A program made the position numbers and the translations under genes. The notes beneath the pieces are model-generated. The model was given only the letters and a program-made list of their open reading frames with translations, had not been told where the DNA came from and did not search any database. Of a stretch of 52,641 nt of DNA, positions 22,483 through 34,537 are shown piece after piece. Every line of letters starts with the position of its first letter. The stretch's first letter is position 1. Source of the DNA: an uncultured SAR86 cluster bacterium (lineage in GTDB: Bacteria; Pseudomonadota; Gammaproteobacteria; Magnimaribacterales; AG-339-G14); NCBI GenBank assembly GCA_902527995.1, contig CABZRA010000005.1, positions 1 to 52,641 on the forward strand, given 5' to 3'.

Positions 22483-23031
22483 GTGATTCGTTATAATTTA
22501 ATTAAGTTTATTAGACCTATGCCAAAAGTTCTAACCCAGATTGCATTTTTTTTCTTTGGTACGCGCAGAAGAATTCTTGGATCTATTTTATCCGCTTGTA
22601 TTTACCTTCTCATTTTTGCTTTTTATATGGAGTATCGTTTGGGCTTAGAACCTTGCCCAATGTGTATTGTTCAAAGAATAGCCATCGCCCTAGTTGCCTT
22701 AGTTGCTTTGATAGCAATGATTCATCATAGAGGATTGGATTGGTATTTTGGCGCCATAACTCTAATTACCTTGGGAGGAGCTGCATCAGCAACTAGACAC
22801 CTTTACTTGCAATCCTTACCAGCAGATCAAATTCCATCATGCGGCCCCGATCTAGCATATTTAATCAAATTTTCTTATTTCGAAGATGCCTTGCGAATGC
22901 TATTTATTGGTGATGGAAATTGTGCAGAAATAGTATGGAGCCTTTTGGGTATATCCATTCCGGGATGGGTTTTAATTGCCTGCATTCAAATTTTAGTAAT
23001 GTCAGCTCTAGCACTTAAAATCAGAACCTGA
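22483..23031 (+). CDS. dsbB: Disulfide bond formation protein DsbB
   Basis: 182 aa; LEPCPMCIVQRIAI and second Cys pair (SCGPDLAYL...GNCAEIVW). Confidence 0.9.
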   Translation: MIRYNLIKFIRPMPKVLTQIAFFFFGTRRRILGSILSACIYLLIFAFYMEYRLGLEPCPMCIVQRIAIALVALVALIAMIHHRGLDWYFGAITLITLGGAASATRHLYLQSLPADQIPSCGPDLAYLIKFSYFEDALRMLFIGDGNCAEIVWSLLGISIPGWVLIACIQILVMSALALKIRT

Positions 23032-23918
23032 TGGACTTTTCAGCGCTGACTTTAATCTTTTCTTTATGCACTCTGGCGTTAGTGATTTTTCTCTTTTTGA
23101 AACAAAGAGATAGAGAAAATGATAATAGCGGTCAAAAAGAATTGCTCGAAAATAAAATAGATTCTGTTTCAAAGGATCTTAATGAAATAGAAAACCAACT
23201 TGCTTCGGTTACAACTCCAATCAACGAATTGAACCGTTTTTTAGGGGGTAATGTCACTACTGGAAGATTGGGAGAGTGGAACTTAGAATCGATCGTGAAA
23301 GAAATTCTCTCCGATGGAAGCTATGAATTCCAAGCAAACATAAATCCTGAAAATCAAGATAGAGTAGATTGTGCTGTCAAGACTGCAGATGGAGTTACGA
23401 TTCCGATCGATTCAAAATTTTATGCTGGTCAATACAAGCAATATCAAGAAGCTGGGCAAGCAAACATAAGGGCAAACGTTCTTAGAGATTTAAGAACGGC
23501 GATCTTAAGAGATGCAGACGACATCGCAACAAAATATCTTCGACAAAATTCTACTTCAAATTATGCTGTGCTTTATATTGCGTCAGAAAAACTAATAGAC
23601 CTTGTTGATGAAATAGAAAATTTAAGACAGGACTGTCTCTCAGAAAAGAAGATATTGATTCAAGGTCCAAATACGCTAGCAGCATTTCTAGATACAATAA
23701 GAATTGGTCATCATTATTTGGAGTTGAACGAAACTGCAGCAAAAGTTGCTGAAGTTGTTAGAAAAATTAAAACTCAGTTTGATAGTTTTGACAAAAGTGC
23801 AGACGGAGTTTTAAAAAGATTAGATGCGTCCGTAAAAGAAGTCACCGCACTGCAAACGAGAATAAATGTTTTGGGAAGAGAGCTAAATAAAGGAAGTGAA
23901 GAATTAAAAGATGAATAA
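23031..23918 (+). CDS. rmuC: RmuC-family protein (short form)
   Basis: 295 aa; N-terminal TM, coiled coil, TGRLGEWNLESIVKEIL, DCAVKTADGVTIPIDSKFYAGQYKQYQ. Confidence 0.88.
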   Translation: MDFSALTLIFSLCTLALVIFLFLKQRDRENDNSGQKELLENKIDSVSKDLNEIENQLASVTTPINELNRFLGGNVTTGRLGEWNLESIVKEILSDGSYEFQANINPENQDRVDCAVKTADGVTIPIDSKFYAGQYKQYQEAGQANIRANVLRDLRTAILRDADDIATKYLRQNSTSNYAVLYIASEKLIDLVDEIENLRQDCLSEKKILIQGPNTLAAFLDTIRIGHHYLELNETAAKVAEVVRKIKTQFDSFDKSADGVLKRLDASVKEVTALQTRINVLGRELNKGSEELKDE

Positions 23919-23949
23919 AAAAAGGGGGCAAATTGCCCCCTTTTTTTTA
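23916..23949. terminator. Bidirectional rho-independent terminator between rmuC and the 23960 gene
   Basis: AAAAAAAGGGGGCAAATTGCCCCCTTTTTTTT. Confidence 0.92.
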
Positions 23950-23959
23950 TAGCTATATA

Positions 23960-24664
23960 TTAATCCCAAGCTTTAATTGGTGTCACTATTCCTCTTCTGA
24001 CGATGGATCTATTTCTTCTAACTGAATTTTGGAATTCTGCAAAGTCTGCATTGTCCATATTCAATAAATCCATAGTAGCCATTAGATTTGCCATATCTGA
24101 TCCGCCGATAAACGCAAAATGAGTGTAATCATCGCCTGCGACAACTCTTTCCACTCCAAAAGAACGAGTGAGTTGTCCGTTTGCGATTGCTGCGTCAGTA
24201 AACTTTTTGTATGCATCTACATAAGAAGCTTCATTTCTGACATTGATTTCAAACACTGCAAAAGCGTTATCTTGAGTCCAATCTCCAGCTTCATAAACTG
24301 ATTTAACTAAGGTTTGTTCTGTTGCCACAGAAACTGCTGAAAGTTCAGTTAAAAAAGTTCCATATTCTGGACAAGTGCTCAAAGTAGCGAAAGTATCGTT
24401 CAAGGCTTGAGCTCCTTCGTAAGTCACAACAAAAGTGTGAGTTTGAGGCTCGTGGCCATTGAAAGCTTCGCCCATCAAGGCTACTGAGAATGGGGCTGTC
24501 TGGCCACATTCAGATGCCATGAATTTATCCATTGCAGCGACTACTGCCGGGGGGTTGCTAACTGTCATTCCGAAATAAGCATAGTATGTATCCTTTTCCA
24601 TGCCATGACCATCGGCGAAAACAAGCCCGCTTGAGATTAGAAGTGTTAGTAATATTTTTTTCAT
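23960..24664 (-). CDS. Secreted protein of unknown function, tandem paralogue 1 (two-domain, ferredoxin-like/Dabb-ABM-type barrel suspected)
   Basis: 234 aa with signal peptide; two similar ~100-aa halves (YYAYFGMTVSNPPAVVAAMDKFM... / FAVFEINVRNEASYVDAYKKF...). Confidence 0.8.
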   Translation of the reverse strand: MKKILLTLLISSGLVFADGHGMEKDTYYAYFGMTVSNPPAVVAAMDKFMASECGQTAPFSVALMGEAFNGHEPQTHTFVVTYEGAQALNDTFATLSTCPEYGTFLTELSAVSVATEQTLVKSVYEAGDWTQDNAFAVFEINVRNEASYVDAYKKFTDAAIANGQLTRSFGVERVVAGDDYTHFAFIGGSDMANLMATMDLLNMDNADFAEFQNSVRRNRSIVRRGIVTPIKAWD

Positions 24665-24691
24665 TTTTTCTCCTTACAAATAAATAAAAAA

Positions 24692-25393
24692 TTAATTAGC
24701 TGTATACAGTTGTTCACAGACTTCATAGGAATCCGCAACTACTGCATCTTGTAGCGCTACAAAAGCATCAAGAGATCTGCCCCATTCTGCTCCACTGAAA
24801 TATTCATCAACTAGTTTTCCAACAGCAGCTCCGTCTCTTGAGATACCTCTAACTAGTAAGGTTCCAACTTCGTTAGATCCGCCGCCTAAAGAGGTCATAA
24901 TTCCTAAATTAAAATCGTGGCCAGCATCTTGAATTGCAGCTTCCAGAGCTACTCCTGCCGCTAAATAAGCAGGTAGGTTTTCTGGTGAGACAACTACTCT
25001 AGTTACCCTTTCATAACCTGGATCTAACTTGAATCCTTTGAGAGGTTTCCAATTTGCGCTATAAACAATATCTCTTAAGGATTCTAGTCTTTTAGGGACG
25101 TTGTAAACGTCATAATTTTCTGAACCAGAAAATTGTGCTTCCATGGTTGGAAAAGCACTCCAAACAAACATTTCACCAGGGTAATTGTGACCCGATGCAG
25201 TTATACAGACTCCAGCAGCTGATGGTCCCTGCGAACTAAAAATTTGCTCTGCATTTGCTCTCAAAAACTCTGTATATTCTGTTGGGTTTTGAGCTTTCAC
25301 ATGCAGAGAAGTAAAGCCTCCTTCTGGAGCTTGCTGAGCTATCACACTAAATGATATCACTAACGATGTAATTAAAATTAATATTTTTTTCAT
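24692..25393 (-). CDS. Secreted protein of unknown function, tandem paralogue 2
   Basis: 233 aa with signal peptide; FTSLHVKAQNPTEYTEFLRANAEQI...GVCITASGHNYPGEMFVWSAFP; shares layout with the neighbours. Confidence 0.8.
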   Translation of the reverse strand: MKKILILITSLVISFSVIAQQAPEGGFTSLHVKAQNPTEYTEFLRANAEQIFSSQGPSAAGVCITASGHNYPGEMFVWSAFPTMEAQFSGSENYDVYNVPKRLESLRDIVYSANWKPLKGFKLDPGYERVTRVVVSPENLPAYLAAGVALEAAIQDAGHDFNLGIMTSLGGGSNEVGTLLVRGISRDGAAVGKLVDEYFSGAEWGRSLDAFVALQDAVVADSYEVCEQLYTAN

Positions 25394-25407
25394 ATTTCCT
25401 CCTTAAA

Positions 25408-26094
25408 TTATCTTACGTAGACTACTTCACAGGTCATTACAAAACCTCTTTCGAGATCTCTCAATCTTGGAAATTTTGCGCTTGCAGCCATATTCCAATC
25501 CTCATTTCTTGCATCGAGAAATTCACCCAACCTTACCGAGGTTGGGGCTTGTATGACTACCATAATTTGACCCGTGTAATCGCCAGTATTTATTTGAAAT
25601 GCGCCAAAAGTTACATCTTCAAAACCGTTATCTTGTGCAATTGATTGATAATCAGTTAGTTCCTGAATATATCTTTGCGGCGTTTTAGTTGTTACATTGA
25701 TATTGTAATTTGCATACGTCATCCCAACCTCGAATCCGTCTCCAACTGGAGTTAAAGCTGAATAGTGATCAACCATTCGAACAGTTCTTTTATCCGCAAT
25801 TTTTGCAATTTCAGCTGCAATTTCAGGGTCGTAGTAATTTCCACTAAGGGAATCAGAATGGCTATCGTAAAGGCTAAAAAAGTACATGTCACCAAATTCT
25901 TCTGCACCAGAACCAGGCAAACAAACGCCTGAGCTAGTGGTGTTAGAAGGCAGGCTGGTAATTGGAGCGCTTGCTCTAGCCCAGTCCATATATCCCATTG
26001 GATCTGATGTGTTTATTGTAAAAACATTCATTGCTGGAGCTGCAAAAGCAAAACTTGCCAGAAATGAAGTTAAAATTAAAAGTGTTTTTTTCAT
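25408..26094 (-). CDS. Secreted protein of unknown function, tandem paralogue 3
   Basis: Start moved to ATG 26094 (MKKTLLILTSFLASFAFAAPA) with upstream SD TAAGGAGAG; MNVFTINTSDPMGYMDWARASAPI...GVCLPGSGAEEFGDMYFFSLYD. Confidence 0.8.
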   Translation of the reverse strand: MKKTLLILTSFLASFAFAAPAMNVFTINTSDPMGYMDWARASAPITSLPSNTTSSGVCLPGSGAEEFGDMYFFSLYDSHSDSLSGNYYDPEIAAEIAKIADKRTVRMVDHYSALTPVGDGFEVGMTYANYNINVTTKTPQRYIQELTDYQSIAQDNGFEDVTFGAFQINTGDYTGQIMVVIQAPTSVRLGEFLDARNEDWNMAASAKFPRLRDLERGFVMTCEVVYVR

Positions 26095-26180
26095 TTTTGT
26101 TCTCTCCTTAAAAAAATAAAAATGGGTATTCATTATCCACTAAAATAGGAAAAGTTAAATGACAATTAGTCGAATATTTT

Positions 26181-26645: not shown

Positions 26646-28058
26646 ATGGAAAAATTAGAGAACATAAATTTTAAAAATTCTTTTGGAACATTATCTGAAG
26701 ACTTTTATACCAAACAAGGATGGAGCCCTTTACCCAAAGCTAAATTGGTAAGTTTTAATTATGATCTTGCCAAAGAACTAGGACTAGAAACTATCAACCC
26801 AGGGTATTTAATAAAAATTTTTAATGGAGAAGTTTCTGTACCTAACTCTGAGCCTTTAGCAATGGCTTATGCAGGACATCAATTTGGAAACTGGGTACCT
26901 CAATTAGGGGATGGTCGTGGAATCTTGTTTGGTCAAATAAAAACTGCTAATGGTCTCAAAGACCTTCATATTAAAGGTGCAGGCAAGACTCCTTATTCGA
27001 GATTTGGTGATGGAAGAGCCGTTCTTAGGTCTTCTATTAGAGAGTACCTATGTGGTGAAGCGATGCATGGTTTAAAGATACCCTCTTCAAGATCTTTGAT
27101 TATATTCACTGGTGAAGAACCAGTATTTAGAGAAACTACTGAACCTGGTGCCATGATCGTTCGAACTGCAAGCACCCATATCCGTTTTGGTAACTTTGAA
27201 TATCTTTGTCACAACGGTAAACAAAATCTTTTGCCCGAATTGATTGATCATGTCATCGAAGAATACTTTCCTGAATACGTAGAACTTGAGAATAAAAATG
27301 AATTATTTTTTGAGGCGGTAGTTAAAAAAACGGCAGAGCTCATTGCTGCTTGGCAAAGCGTTGGCTTTGCTCATGGAGTAATGAATACAGACAATATGTC
27401 TATTCTTGGAGAGACTTTTGATTTTGGACCTTTTGGCTTCTTAGAGAACTATCAACCCGATTACATTTGCAATCATTCGGATTATCAAGGTCGATATTCT
27501 TTTAACAACCAACCTAACATTGGACTTTGGAATTGTCAGGCACTTGCGTCGGCTTTGTCACCCTTAATAAACGAAACACAACTTAAAAAATCTTTAGAAA
27601 ATTATCAGCTGTATTTTTACAATCATTTTATTCATCTCTTCAGAGGGAAACTTGGTCTCATAAAAAAAGATCACAAGGATTTTGAATTGATCGAAGAAAC
27701 TTTAAATTTTTTAAAGCAAGAAAAACTAGATTACACGAATTTCTTTAGGAATCTAAATGGCTTTATTTTTGGAGATAAAAAATTTAGTCTCCAAGAAAAA
27801 TTAAGAAAAAGATTTGAATTTGAAGAAATATCGCAAGATAAACACGAGGAAATAGTTAAAGCAAATAATCCAAAATTTATTCTTAGAAATTACCTAGCTC
27901 AAGTCGCAATCGAGAAGGCTGAAAAAGGAGATTTTTCAGAAGTTAATAAATTATTAGAAATTTTAAAAAATCCTTTCTTAGATCATAAAGGCCTTGATGA
28001 CTATGCAAAGGAGTCACCCGAGTGGGGGAAAAATTTAGAAATTTCTTGCTCGTCTTAG
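26646..28058 (+). CDS. selO: SelO/YdiU-family protein adenylyltransferase (pseudokinase fold)
   Basis: 470 aa; AMAYAGHQFGNWVPQLGDGRGILFGQI, LHIKGAGKTPYSRFGDGRAVLRSSIREYL, GVMNTDNMSILGETFDFGPFGFL; C-terminus ISCSS. Confidence 0.95.
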   Translation: MEKLENINFKNSFGTLSEDFYTKQGWSPLPKAKLVSFNYDLAKELGLETINPGYLIKIFNGEVSVPNSEPLAMAYAGHQFGNWVPQLGDGRGILFGQIKTANGLKDLHIKGAGKTPYSRFGDGRAVLRSSIREYLCGEAMHGLKIPSSRSLIIFTGEEPVFRETTEPGAMIVRTASTHIRFGNFEYLCHNGKQNLLPELIDHVIEEYFPEYVELENKNELFFEAVVKKTAELIAAWQSVGFAHGVMNTDNMSILGETFDFGPFGFLENYQPDYICNHSDYQGRYSFNNQPNIGLWNCQALASALSPLINETQLKKSLENYQLYFYNHFIHLFRGKLGLIKKDHKDFELIEETLNFLKQEKLDYTNFFRNLNGFIFGDKKFSLQEKLRKRFEFEEISQDKHEEIVKANNPKFILRNYLAQVAIEKAEKGDFSEVNKLLEILKNPFLDHKGLDDYAKESPEWGKNLEISCSS

Positions 28059-28177
28059 GACGTTCTTACACAATTACGAAAGATTTTTTTAAGACCCATT
28101 AGTCCATAACGGTCTTTATCAAAAAAATAAAAAGGCAGCTCTTTTTTACAGCTCAAACATTCTTTCTTATCTTTCAT
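28055..28177 (-). CDS. Small Cys-rich protein (40 aa), putative
   Basis: MKDKKECLSCKKELPFYFFDKDRYGLMGLKKIFRNCVRTS*; CxxC plus distal C. Convergent stop overlaps the selO stop. No clear SD. Confidence 0.4.
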   Translation of the reverse strand: MKDKKECLSCKKELPFYFFDKDRYGLMGLKKIFRNCVRTS

Positions 28178-28214
28178 AATTTGGATTTTACAGATAAATA
28201 AAGAAAAGAGTATG

Positions 28215-28233
28215 GCCCCAGCTAGACTGGGGC
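28215..28233. other. Hairpin GCCCCAG-CTAGA-CTGGGGC
   Basis: Perfect 7-bp GC-rich stem in AT-rich intergenic DNA. Confidence 0.7.
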
Positions 28234-28244
28234 GACTTTCCTTC

Positions 28245-28278
28245 AAAAAAAGTTGCCCCAGCTGAAAGCTAGGGCAAC
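28245..28278 (-). terminator. Rho-independent terminator downstream of the 33-aa sORF
   Basis: Minus strand: GTTGCCC-T-AGCT-TTC-AGCT-G-GGGCAAC followed by TTTTTTT (28251 to 28245). Confidence 0.85.
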
Positions 28279-28315
28279 GTGGGGGAGAAGAAACTTGTTT
28301 GTTACTCCATTAACG

Positions 28316-28417
28316 TCAGGAGGCGAAGGTTAATATTCCTAAGCTACCTACATATACAATTGCAGAGAGACATACAACATAACCTAACGTACCCAACAGT
28401 GCTTTTGTATAGTTCAT
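28316..28417 (-). CDS. Single-TM small membrane protein (33 aa), putative
   Basis: MNYTKALLGTLGYVVCLSAIVYVGSLGILTFAS*; upstream GGAG about 10 nt before ATG; own terminator 38 nt downstream. Below the ORF-track length cut-off. Confidence 0.6.
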   Translation of the reverse strand: MNYTKALLGTLGYVVCLSAIVYVGSLGILTFAS

Positions 28418-28743
28418 TTAAACAACTCCGTGTATTAAACTTGTGCAAATTATAATTCATAGCTGCTTTACCTTAATCTTTATAAAAATTAGTTAAAAAT
28501 TACCTAATTGATCTAAATGTTATCAAAAAAGCTCTTTTTATTACCATTTCTGCACTATTAGGCTGAAAGTATACTCAGAAAGGGATTTCAGGCTAGTTAA
28601 AGATTGATAATTTTTACCGAATTTATCTTATTTTATATAGAATTTACCAAAAGTTATTAAAAAGGTCTTTTTTTATGCATTTTTAGGAATTTATATGAAC
28701 TCTTATTAACTGATAAGATATTTTTTTTAAATAAGGGGGATAA

Positions 28744-29751
28744 ATGAAACAAATTCAACTGTCTAAACCAGGAGGTTTAGAAAATCTAAAAATTACGGAA
28801 GCTGAAAATCCAAAGCCTGGCTCTAAAGACGTGCTACTAAAAGTAAATGCCAGTAGCTTGAATTATCATGATCTTATGGTTGCACTCGGCTTAATTCCTA
28901 CTGAGGACAAAAGAGTCCCTCTCTCAGACTCAGCAGGAGAAATCGTTGAAATAGGTGAAGAAGTAACTAAATGGAAATCTGGCGATAAAGTAATGAGCAT
29001 GTGTTTTCCAAATTGGGTCAACGGGCCGCCAAAATACGAATTGTTAAGTTTTATAGGTGATAACCAAGATGGTTATGCAACTGAATATATTTCAATTCCA
29101 GAAACTGCCATTACTAAAATTCCTAACAACCTTACATTAAAGGAAGCAGCAACTTTGCCTTGTGCGGGTCTGACCGCGTGGCGCGCTCTTGTGGATGAAG
29201 GAAATTTAAGATCAGGAGAAACTGTTCTAGTACAAGGTACTGGAGGTGTGTCGGTATTTGCTCTTCAACTTGCAAAAAGTTTTGGAGCAACTGTAATTGC
29301 TACATCCTCTTGTGATGACAAACTTGAAAAACTTAAGCGACTTGGTGCTGATCATTTAATCAATTACAAAACACATCCAGAATGGGGCAAAGAAGTTTTA
29401 AAATTGACTGACAACGTAGGGGTTGATCACGTCGTAGAGGTAGGTGGCGCTGGAACTTTCAGTGAGTCTGTACGTTGCACAAAACTTGCAGGTCACATTG
29501 CCTTGATAGGTGTTTTAAGTGGTCCTTCGGTAAGTGAAATTATCTTACCAAGAATCTTTCTAAAACAAATCCGATTAAGTGGTATTGCCATGGCAAACCA
29601 AGACTCTCAAATTGCGATGATAGAGTATTTAGAGGAAAATGAAATTAAGCCAGTTATAAGCGATAGTTTTGATCTTGAAAATTTAGCAGCTGCATTTCAA
29701 CATCAAATTGATAATAAACATTTTGGGAAAATTTCAATTGATATAGGCTAA
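28744..29751 (+). CDS. MDR-family NAD(P)-dependent alcohol dehydrogenase / quinone oxidoreductase-like
   Basis: 335 aa; LPCAGLTAWRALVDEG, VLVQGTGGVSVFALQLAKSFGATVIATSS. Confidence 0.9.
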   Translation: MKQIQLSKPGGLENLKITEAENPKPGSKDVLLKVNASSLNYHDLMVALGLIPTEDKRVPLSDSAGEIVEIGEEVTKWKSGDKVMSMCFPNWVNGPPKYELLSFIGDNQDGYATEYISIPETAITKIPNNLTLKEAATLPCAGLTAWRALVDEGNLRSGETVLVQGTGGVSVFALQLAKSFGATVIATSSCDDKLEKLKRLGADHLINYKTHPEWGKEVLKLTDNVGVDHVVEVGGAGTFSESVRCTKLAGHIALIGVLSGPSVSEIILPRIFLKQIRLSGIAMANQDSQIAMIEYLEENEIKPVISDSFDLENLAAAFQHQIDNKHFGKISIDIG

Positions 29752-33631: not shown

Positions 33632-34441
33632 TTAAGTTAGAGGTATTTCGCCTGAATTGTAATTTACAGGTGTTTCACAACTAACCACTTCATCAAATGC
33701 GTTTTGAACGTCCATGCCAGTAGCTAAAAAGTTTGCGTTGCCTGCATCTCTTAATTCGGCAGACTGATGAAAGTTACCCCAGAAAAAATCTAATTCTTCT
33801 GTCTCATAATCAGGTGCCAAAACTGCATAAGTGTAAGGCGCGCCTAACGAGTTTTGGTCAGCTTCTATCCAAGCCTCAAATTGATCGATAACCGCGATCA
33901 ATTCATCTGCTCCTTGTCCTTCGTTATATGAACATTGTTGATAATCTGAAGAAAAAGAAGACAAATCAAAAGTTCCTAAAGCATCTCTATCTCTTCTTAT
34001 ATATGCATCAAAAGAGAAGGTATCTGCTTTCGAACCACAAGCCAGAATGTCAGCAGTGGATTCTGCCCACTCAGTTGTTTTATCATAACCTTCCCAGGTT
34101 TCCCAACCGGCTTCTGCATCGGCTTTAGAATTCCATACCAGTTGCCAAAAACCATCTCCAGCTGCGTCTTCTGGTTTATCGCCTTCGAAAGTAATTCCGT
34201 AAGCTGCCACTAAGGTTGAATTAGTTTCGACCAACAAGTCTTGCCACTCGGGAAGCATATCGCTATTAAAATTTTCTACTGACCAATTTTCGCCATAAGT
34301 ACATGGAACATATTCCATATAAAATTTTTGGGGATATTCTTCGGATCCAAGATCTGCATAAGTCATTTCTGGCTCAGAACTGCATGCAGAAAAAATGGTT
34401 AGAGTTGTGATCAAAGTTAAAATGTATAACTTATTTTTCAT
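33632..34441 (-). CDS. Lipoprotein of unknown function, possible distant relative of the 23960-26094 family
   Basis: Start moved to ATG 34441: MKNKLYILTLITTLTIFSACSSEPE lipobox; SD AACGGAGAG; duplicated internal layout. Confidence 0.75.
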   Translation of the reverse strand: MKNKLYILTLITTLTIFSACSSEPEMTYADLGSEEYPQKFYMEYVPCTYGENWSVENFNSDMLPEWQDLLVETNSTLVAAYGITFEGDKPEDAAGDGFWQLVWNSKADAEAGWETWEGYDKTTEWAESTADILACGSKADTFSFDAYIRRDRDALGTFDLSSFSSDYQQCSYNEGQGADELIAVIDQFEAWIEADQNSLGAPYTYAVLAPDYETEELDFFWGNFHQSAELRDAGNANFLATGMDVQNAFDEVVSCETPVNYNSGEIPLT

Positions 34442-34537
34442 TTTTGTACTCTCCGTTAAAATTAAAATGAACATTAAGTATCCTCCCAAAAAACTGGACA
34501 ATCAAGCGTTGGCGATTACAAATTTGTAGGTTTTAAT

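Follow-up and report, generated by a model that had tools for sequence, protein, structure and literature searches.

The window analysed here, a stretch of 52,641 nucleotides of SAR86 DNA taken as a whole, carries a tandem array of three genes belonging to a large and nearly unannotated family of proteins that are predicted to be exported and that appear to be restricted to SAR86 in the samples searched. A preliminary description of this DNA had regarded a tandem expansion of exported barrels as the unusual feature; what is unusual is instead the occurrence of the family throughout SAR86 and, in our samples, nowhere else. The fold itself is known already; to judge from the tools used here, what is undescribed is its exported single-chain form with two cysteines, along with the seeming confinement of that form to SAR86.

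Three consecutive minus-strand genes of about 233 aa with signal peptides had been proposed, and open reading frames of the expected kind were present, encoding 234 aa (paralogue 1, P0001, 23960–24664), 233 aa (paralogue 2, P0002, 24692–25393) and 228 aa (paralogue 3, P0003, 25408–26094). The proposed span of 23960–26133 holds for the presence of these frames, but its outer end is the less likely start: for paralogue 3, the first gene of the array, position 26094 (AAGGAGAGAACAAAAATG) is preferred over the upstream ATG at 26133 because it has the better ribosome-binding site and a classical signal peptide begins there. As each gene has its own purine-rich Shine-Dalgarno sequence, intergenic spacings are 14–28 bp and beyond the last gene lies a strong intrinsic terminator (23917–23947, minus strand, with a 14-pair stem and a T run), the array looks like one operon, with a predicted transcription order of paralogue 3, paralogue 2 and paralogue 1. 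Reading of the sequences placed a Sec-type signal at the N-terminus of all three proteins, and a simple sequence rule detected a signal-like N-terminus in 70 of 71 family relatives; the members of the family are predicted to be exported periplasmic proteins.

We assessed relatedness among the three proteins by pairwise and profile comparison. Pairwise BLASTP matched paralogue 2 to paralogue 3 (3e-9, partly due to the signal peptide) and left paralogue 1 unmatched to either, while iterated profiles over SAR86 relatives, seeded with each paralogue, reached an identical set of 120 proteins. Since signal peptides might drive such convergence, profiles of the mature proteins only were compared, giving hhalign values of 99.2% (E 6e-20) for paralogue 2 versus 3 and 86% (E 5e-6) for paralogue 1 versus each of the others. 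The three paralogues are all homologous, with profile similarity in every pairwise combination, and paralogue 1 is the more diverged, as had been described. Of the motifs initially listed for paralogues 2 and 3, GVCxxxxGxxxxGxM was found exactly as quoted; NPxEY is better written [ND]PxxYxx[FW]xRAxA, and QDxG is present with its next glycine five or six residues on.

AlphaFold2 models of paralogues 1 and 2, for which 53 and 60 relatives were aligned, were of high confidence (mean pLDDT 90.2 and 91.8, respectively). Both comprise two consecutive βα(α)ββααβ halves with a long last strand in each, and hence share one topology rather than having unrelated folds; a two-half fold is also expected for paralogue 3 from its homology to paralogue 2. 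The top Foldseek match in the PDB was 2PGC for both models (TM by target 0.80 for paralogue 1 and 0.75 for paralogue 2, rmsd 3.1–3.8 Å, 10–13% identity), followed by ABM-type putative monooxygenases (among them the anthrone-oxidase-like 5F9P and the putative monooxygenases 3F44 and 3MCS), chlorite dismutase/HemQ and sulfur oxygenase reductase (SOR), all of which are α+β barrels. The ferredoxin-like, Dabb/ABM-type layout suspected from the letters alone was thus recovered for paralogues 1 and 2, and the models place the family in the dimeric α+β barrel (DABB/ABM) structural superfamily, to which paralogue 3 would belong by homology.

Each protein had also been thought to consist of two repeated halves, a claim supported by the predicted structures of paralogues 1 and 2 and by hhalign for paralogue 1, but not by the sequence signal within paralogue 2 or 3 alone. 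The N- and C-halves of paralogue 1 matched at 97.5% (E 5e-12), with a score of 67 against a shuffled mean of 11.5 and maximum of 20. The equivalent comparisons were not convincing within paralogue 2 (24%, score 24.7, shuffled maximum 27.7) or paralogue 3 (38%, score 27.0, shuffled maximum 23.5). These two proteins are linked in through the paralogue 1 C-half, which matched the paralogue 2 N-half (88%) and both paralogue 3 halves (89% and 81%); the four half-domain comparisons involving paralogue 1 scored 34–67, above shuffled-column controls that averaged about 11 and reached at most 20.

At least one family member was detected with a combined profile in 66 of 76 SAR86-order genomes, the highest copy number being eight (genome G011), and four members were found in the window's own 71%-complete genome. 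Our wider searches covered class-wide and phylum-wide samples of one phylum. Within the class-wide sample (369 genomes), none of the 365 non-SAR86 gammaproteobacteria had a family member, matches being confined to its four SAR86 genomes, with which a second profile agreed; in the phylum-wide sample only the window's own genome was matched. In a maximum-likelihood tree, a fully supported split sets the paralogue 1 group apart from paralogues 2 and 3; branches between paralogue groups measure about 2 changes per site, and several SAR86 genera fall within each group. The paralogue 2 group spans three SAR86 families (f1, f2 and f3), and the paralogue 3 group is close to f2 sequences. Tandem clusters with other make-ups were also present in G011 (four genes, three of paralogue 2 type and one of paralogue 1 type) and G030 (three family genes), and family clusters have been reshuffled between SAR86 genera.

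Given these deep groups, each with several genera, the array consists of old paralogues and is not the product of recent duplication, so that "tandem expansion" is apt for adjacent homologues but not for a recent event. The genes are adjacent and co-oriented, as would be expected of recent tandem duplicates lacking selected roles and subject to drift or dosage, yet there is next to no chance that this describes them: the groups are some 2 substitutions per site apart, each is common to genera or families, and the family is under strong purifying selection, with orthologue dN/dS (ω) of 0.04–0.11 (several dS values were saturated). The same low dN/dS makes it very improbable that we are observing surface or decoy proteins directed against phages or competitors. 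Such a diversifying multigene family could well be exported and have highly divergent paralogues, as here, but the orthologues stay at one locus throughout a genus, and no family relatives were found in phages or viral contigs.

Gene neighbourhoods compared in 20 regions did not indicate a pathway, flanking genes varying between lineages. In its own genus, the array lies between polA-dsbB-rmuC and SNase-selO-ADH-DUF3604. The DsbB-like gene of the former, conserved block (22483–23031, plus strand, named from sequence reading) is downstream of the array, convergent with it and outside it; a functional tie to the family cysteines was considered and rejected, because dsbB stays together with polA and rmuC and was not observed next to family members at other loci. 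At loci in two genera (L112:8991-13638 and L115:11760-16454), members adjoin a proteasome-like gene cluster, of Anbu type by reading. In the single-contig genome G004, a 233-aa protein that looks two-halved (L125:8888-9583, minus strand) adjoins a true member; its similarity to the family is weak (E 3e-4), and it is possibly a further branch. Elsewhere in the window, a gap of about 690 bp (28058–28744), conserved in three relatives and bearing a conserved GGGGGAGAAGAAACTT element, had no tRNA or Rfam match. Short minus-strand open reading frames were noted at 28316–28417, for a 33-aa membrane-like peptide, and at 28055–28246, including a CxxC peptide.

A second SAR86 family of duplicated exported proteins is represented in the window by a lipoprotein with two repeated halves (33632–34501, minus strand). 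It was also seen at L108, L109, L111 and L124, with further loci at L120:6909-10682, L126:8574-9323 and L119:11775-12524, and yielded no credible Pfam match. N- and C-halves matched at 98.4% by hhalign in the L120 group, and the two groups of this second family matched each other at 97.5%. Four of its genes surround one paralogue-3-type gene in L120. Kinship of this family with the array was tested by sequence, and the link was not significant.

Conserved residues differ between the subfamilies of the array. Exactly two cysteines occur in each mature array protein: C53 and C98 in paralogue 1, C63 and C226 in paralogue 2, and C58 and C222, the equivalents of the latter pair, in paralogue 3. The paralogue 2 pair is invariant (60 of 60), whereas among paralogue 1 relatives both cysteines are present in 40 of 53 and neither in 13, never one singly (these counts ignore phylogeny). 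In the paralogue 2 model, C63 is on the second strand of the N-half and C226 on the last strand of the C-half, and since these edge strands meet in DABB pseudo-dimers, the model suggests a C63-C226 disulfide locking the two halves of the paralogue 2/3 type together. The subfamily-specific positions further suggest two different disulfides, that of the paralogue 1 group (C53-C98) being predicted to lie inside the N-half, near the helices. Histidines are conserved in the paralogue 1 group, namely H76 in the N-half (53 of 53) and H182 in the C-half (46 of 53), which each open the third strand of their half, H182 being the repeat of H76. Conservation in paralogues 2 and 3 falls chiefly on Gly, Cys, Tyr, Trp and Arg (R107 is invariant in the paralogue 2 group), and a conserved histidine is absent from their alignments, making one chemistry shared across the whole family unlikely. 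Catalysis appears more likely in the paralogue 1 group than in paralogues 2 and 3.

From these features we infer, with about even confidence, that the family comprises disulfide-stapled periplasmic barrels of DABB type with a pocket for small hydrophobic compounds, paralogue-specific ligands and probable histidine chemistry in the paralogue 1 group. Following Sec export, each protein would fold as a single-chain pseudo-dimer held by its one staple, and the pocket enclosed by the two sheets would be a periplasmic binding site for small metabolites of hydrophobic or aromatic character. The different ancient paralogues would take different ligands, and in the paralogue 1 group H76 and its repeat would probably mediate acid-base conversion of the ligand. 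Published work credits SAR86 with cleavage of aromatic and steroid rings and with lipid breakdown in the periplasm (PMC11582366), which fits a hydrophobic ligand. More tentatively, the family may constitute an order-specific SAR86 toolkit of stapled double α+β barrels, whether enzymes or carriers, for handling hydrophobic dissolved organic matter in the periplasm, kept and diversified despite genome streamlining; with as many as eight exported paralogues retained in one genome and none detected in the other proteobacteria sampled, the family probably deals with something that matters in the SAR86 niche.

It is possible, if rather doubtful, that the barrels are not catalytic at all, and instead serve as periplasmic carriers or scavengers that bind and pass on ligands (such as lipids or TonB-imported compounds), with conserved residues that are structural. 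Several deep paralogues per genome, each with different conserved residues, would suit such a role, as would the residues kept by paralogues 2 and 3. However, an invariant H76 with a repeated counterpart looks like more than scaffold, and the solved relatives of the fold are mostly enzymes, although 2PGC has no assigned function. The clear fold, two-cysteine pattern and conserved histidines make the question of the ligand testable with purified protein.

Among named families, paralogue 1 passes the gathering cut-off of DUF6854 (Pfam PF21614; 29.4 versus 27 bits), which paralogues 2 and 3 do not reach, and the model matches 6 of 71 family members at E 0.01. It describes a single 96-position domain without assigned function, whereas the family proteins have two halves. 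The Dabb (PF07876) and ABM (PF03992) models had zero matches to the three proteins up to E 10 and zero among the 71 relatives at 0.01; scans of NCBIfam and PHROGs, and most Pfam scans, returned nothing useful for the family, and the collection of literature searched contained nothing on it or on DUF6854. Being nearly invisible to these three resources, its members would tend to be labelled hypothetical by annotation pipelines.

The closest structure, 2PGC, is that of the marine-metagenome protein JCVI_PEP_1096685590403, which we take to be the SCOP "marine metagenome family DABB1". It resembles paralogues 1 and 2 in being one chain with a two-half barrel fold, but no TH motif appears in its printed alignment. 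Against PDB sequences, the paralogue 1 profile aligned collinearly with 2PGC at a sub-significant E of 0.3, and its printed 142-residue part gave 75% by hhalign; the paralogue 2/3 profile retrieved nothing meaningful, 2PGC included. Common descent with 2PGC is likely but not shown. A SAR86 origin of 2PGC was considered and set aside, as the 142 residues matched nothing in 81 SAR86-order genomes (80 relatives and the window's own) in a search run without a positive control.

Chlorite dismutase and HemQ, among the top fold matches, are likewise single-chain pseudo-dimeric ferredoxin-like barrels, and by comparison the SAR86 proteins might be periplasmic heme proteins acting in a similar manner with one heme per chain. 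We consider this improbable: the fold match is weaker (TM about 0.5–0.57 at 5–6 Å), no heme-ligand histidine is conserved across the family, paralogues 2 and 3 having none, and a chlorite-dismutase Pfam match is absent for the three proteins. Olivetolic acid cyclase, a DABB-fold cyclase, uses the pocket residue His78 in acid-base chemistry (PMC8156804). DABB-fold cyclases and ABM-type monooxygenases share the α+β barrel fold with the family. Those characterised are known as cytoplasmic proteins, many of them single-domain dimers; the SAR86 proteins differ from them in being single-chain, in their predicted export and in their conserved pair of cysteines.
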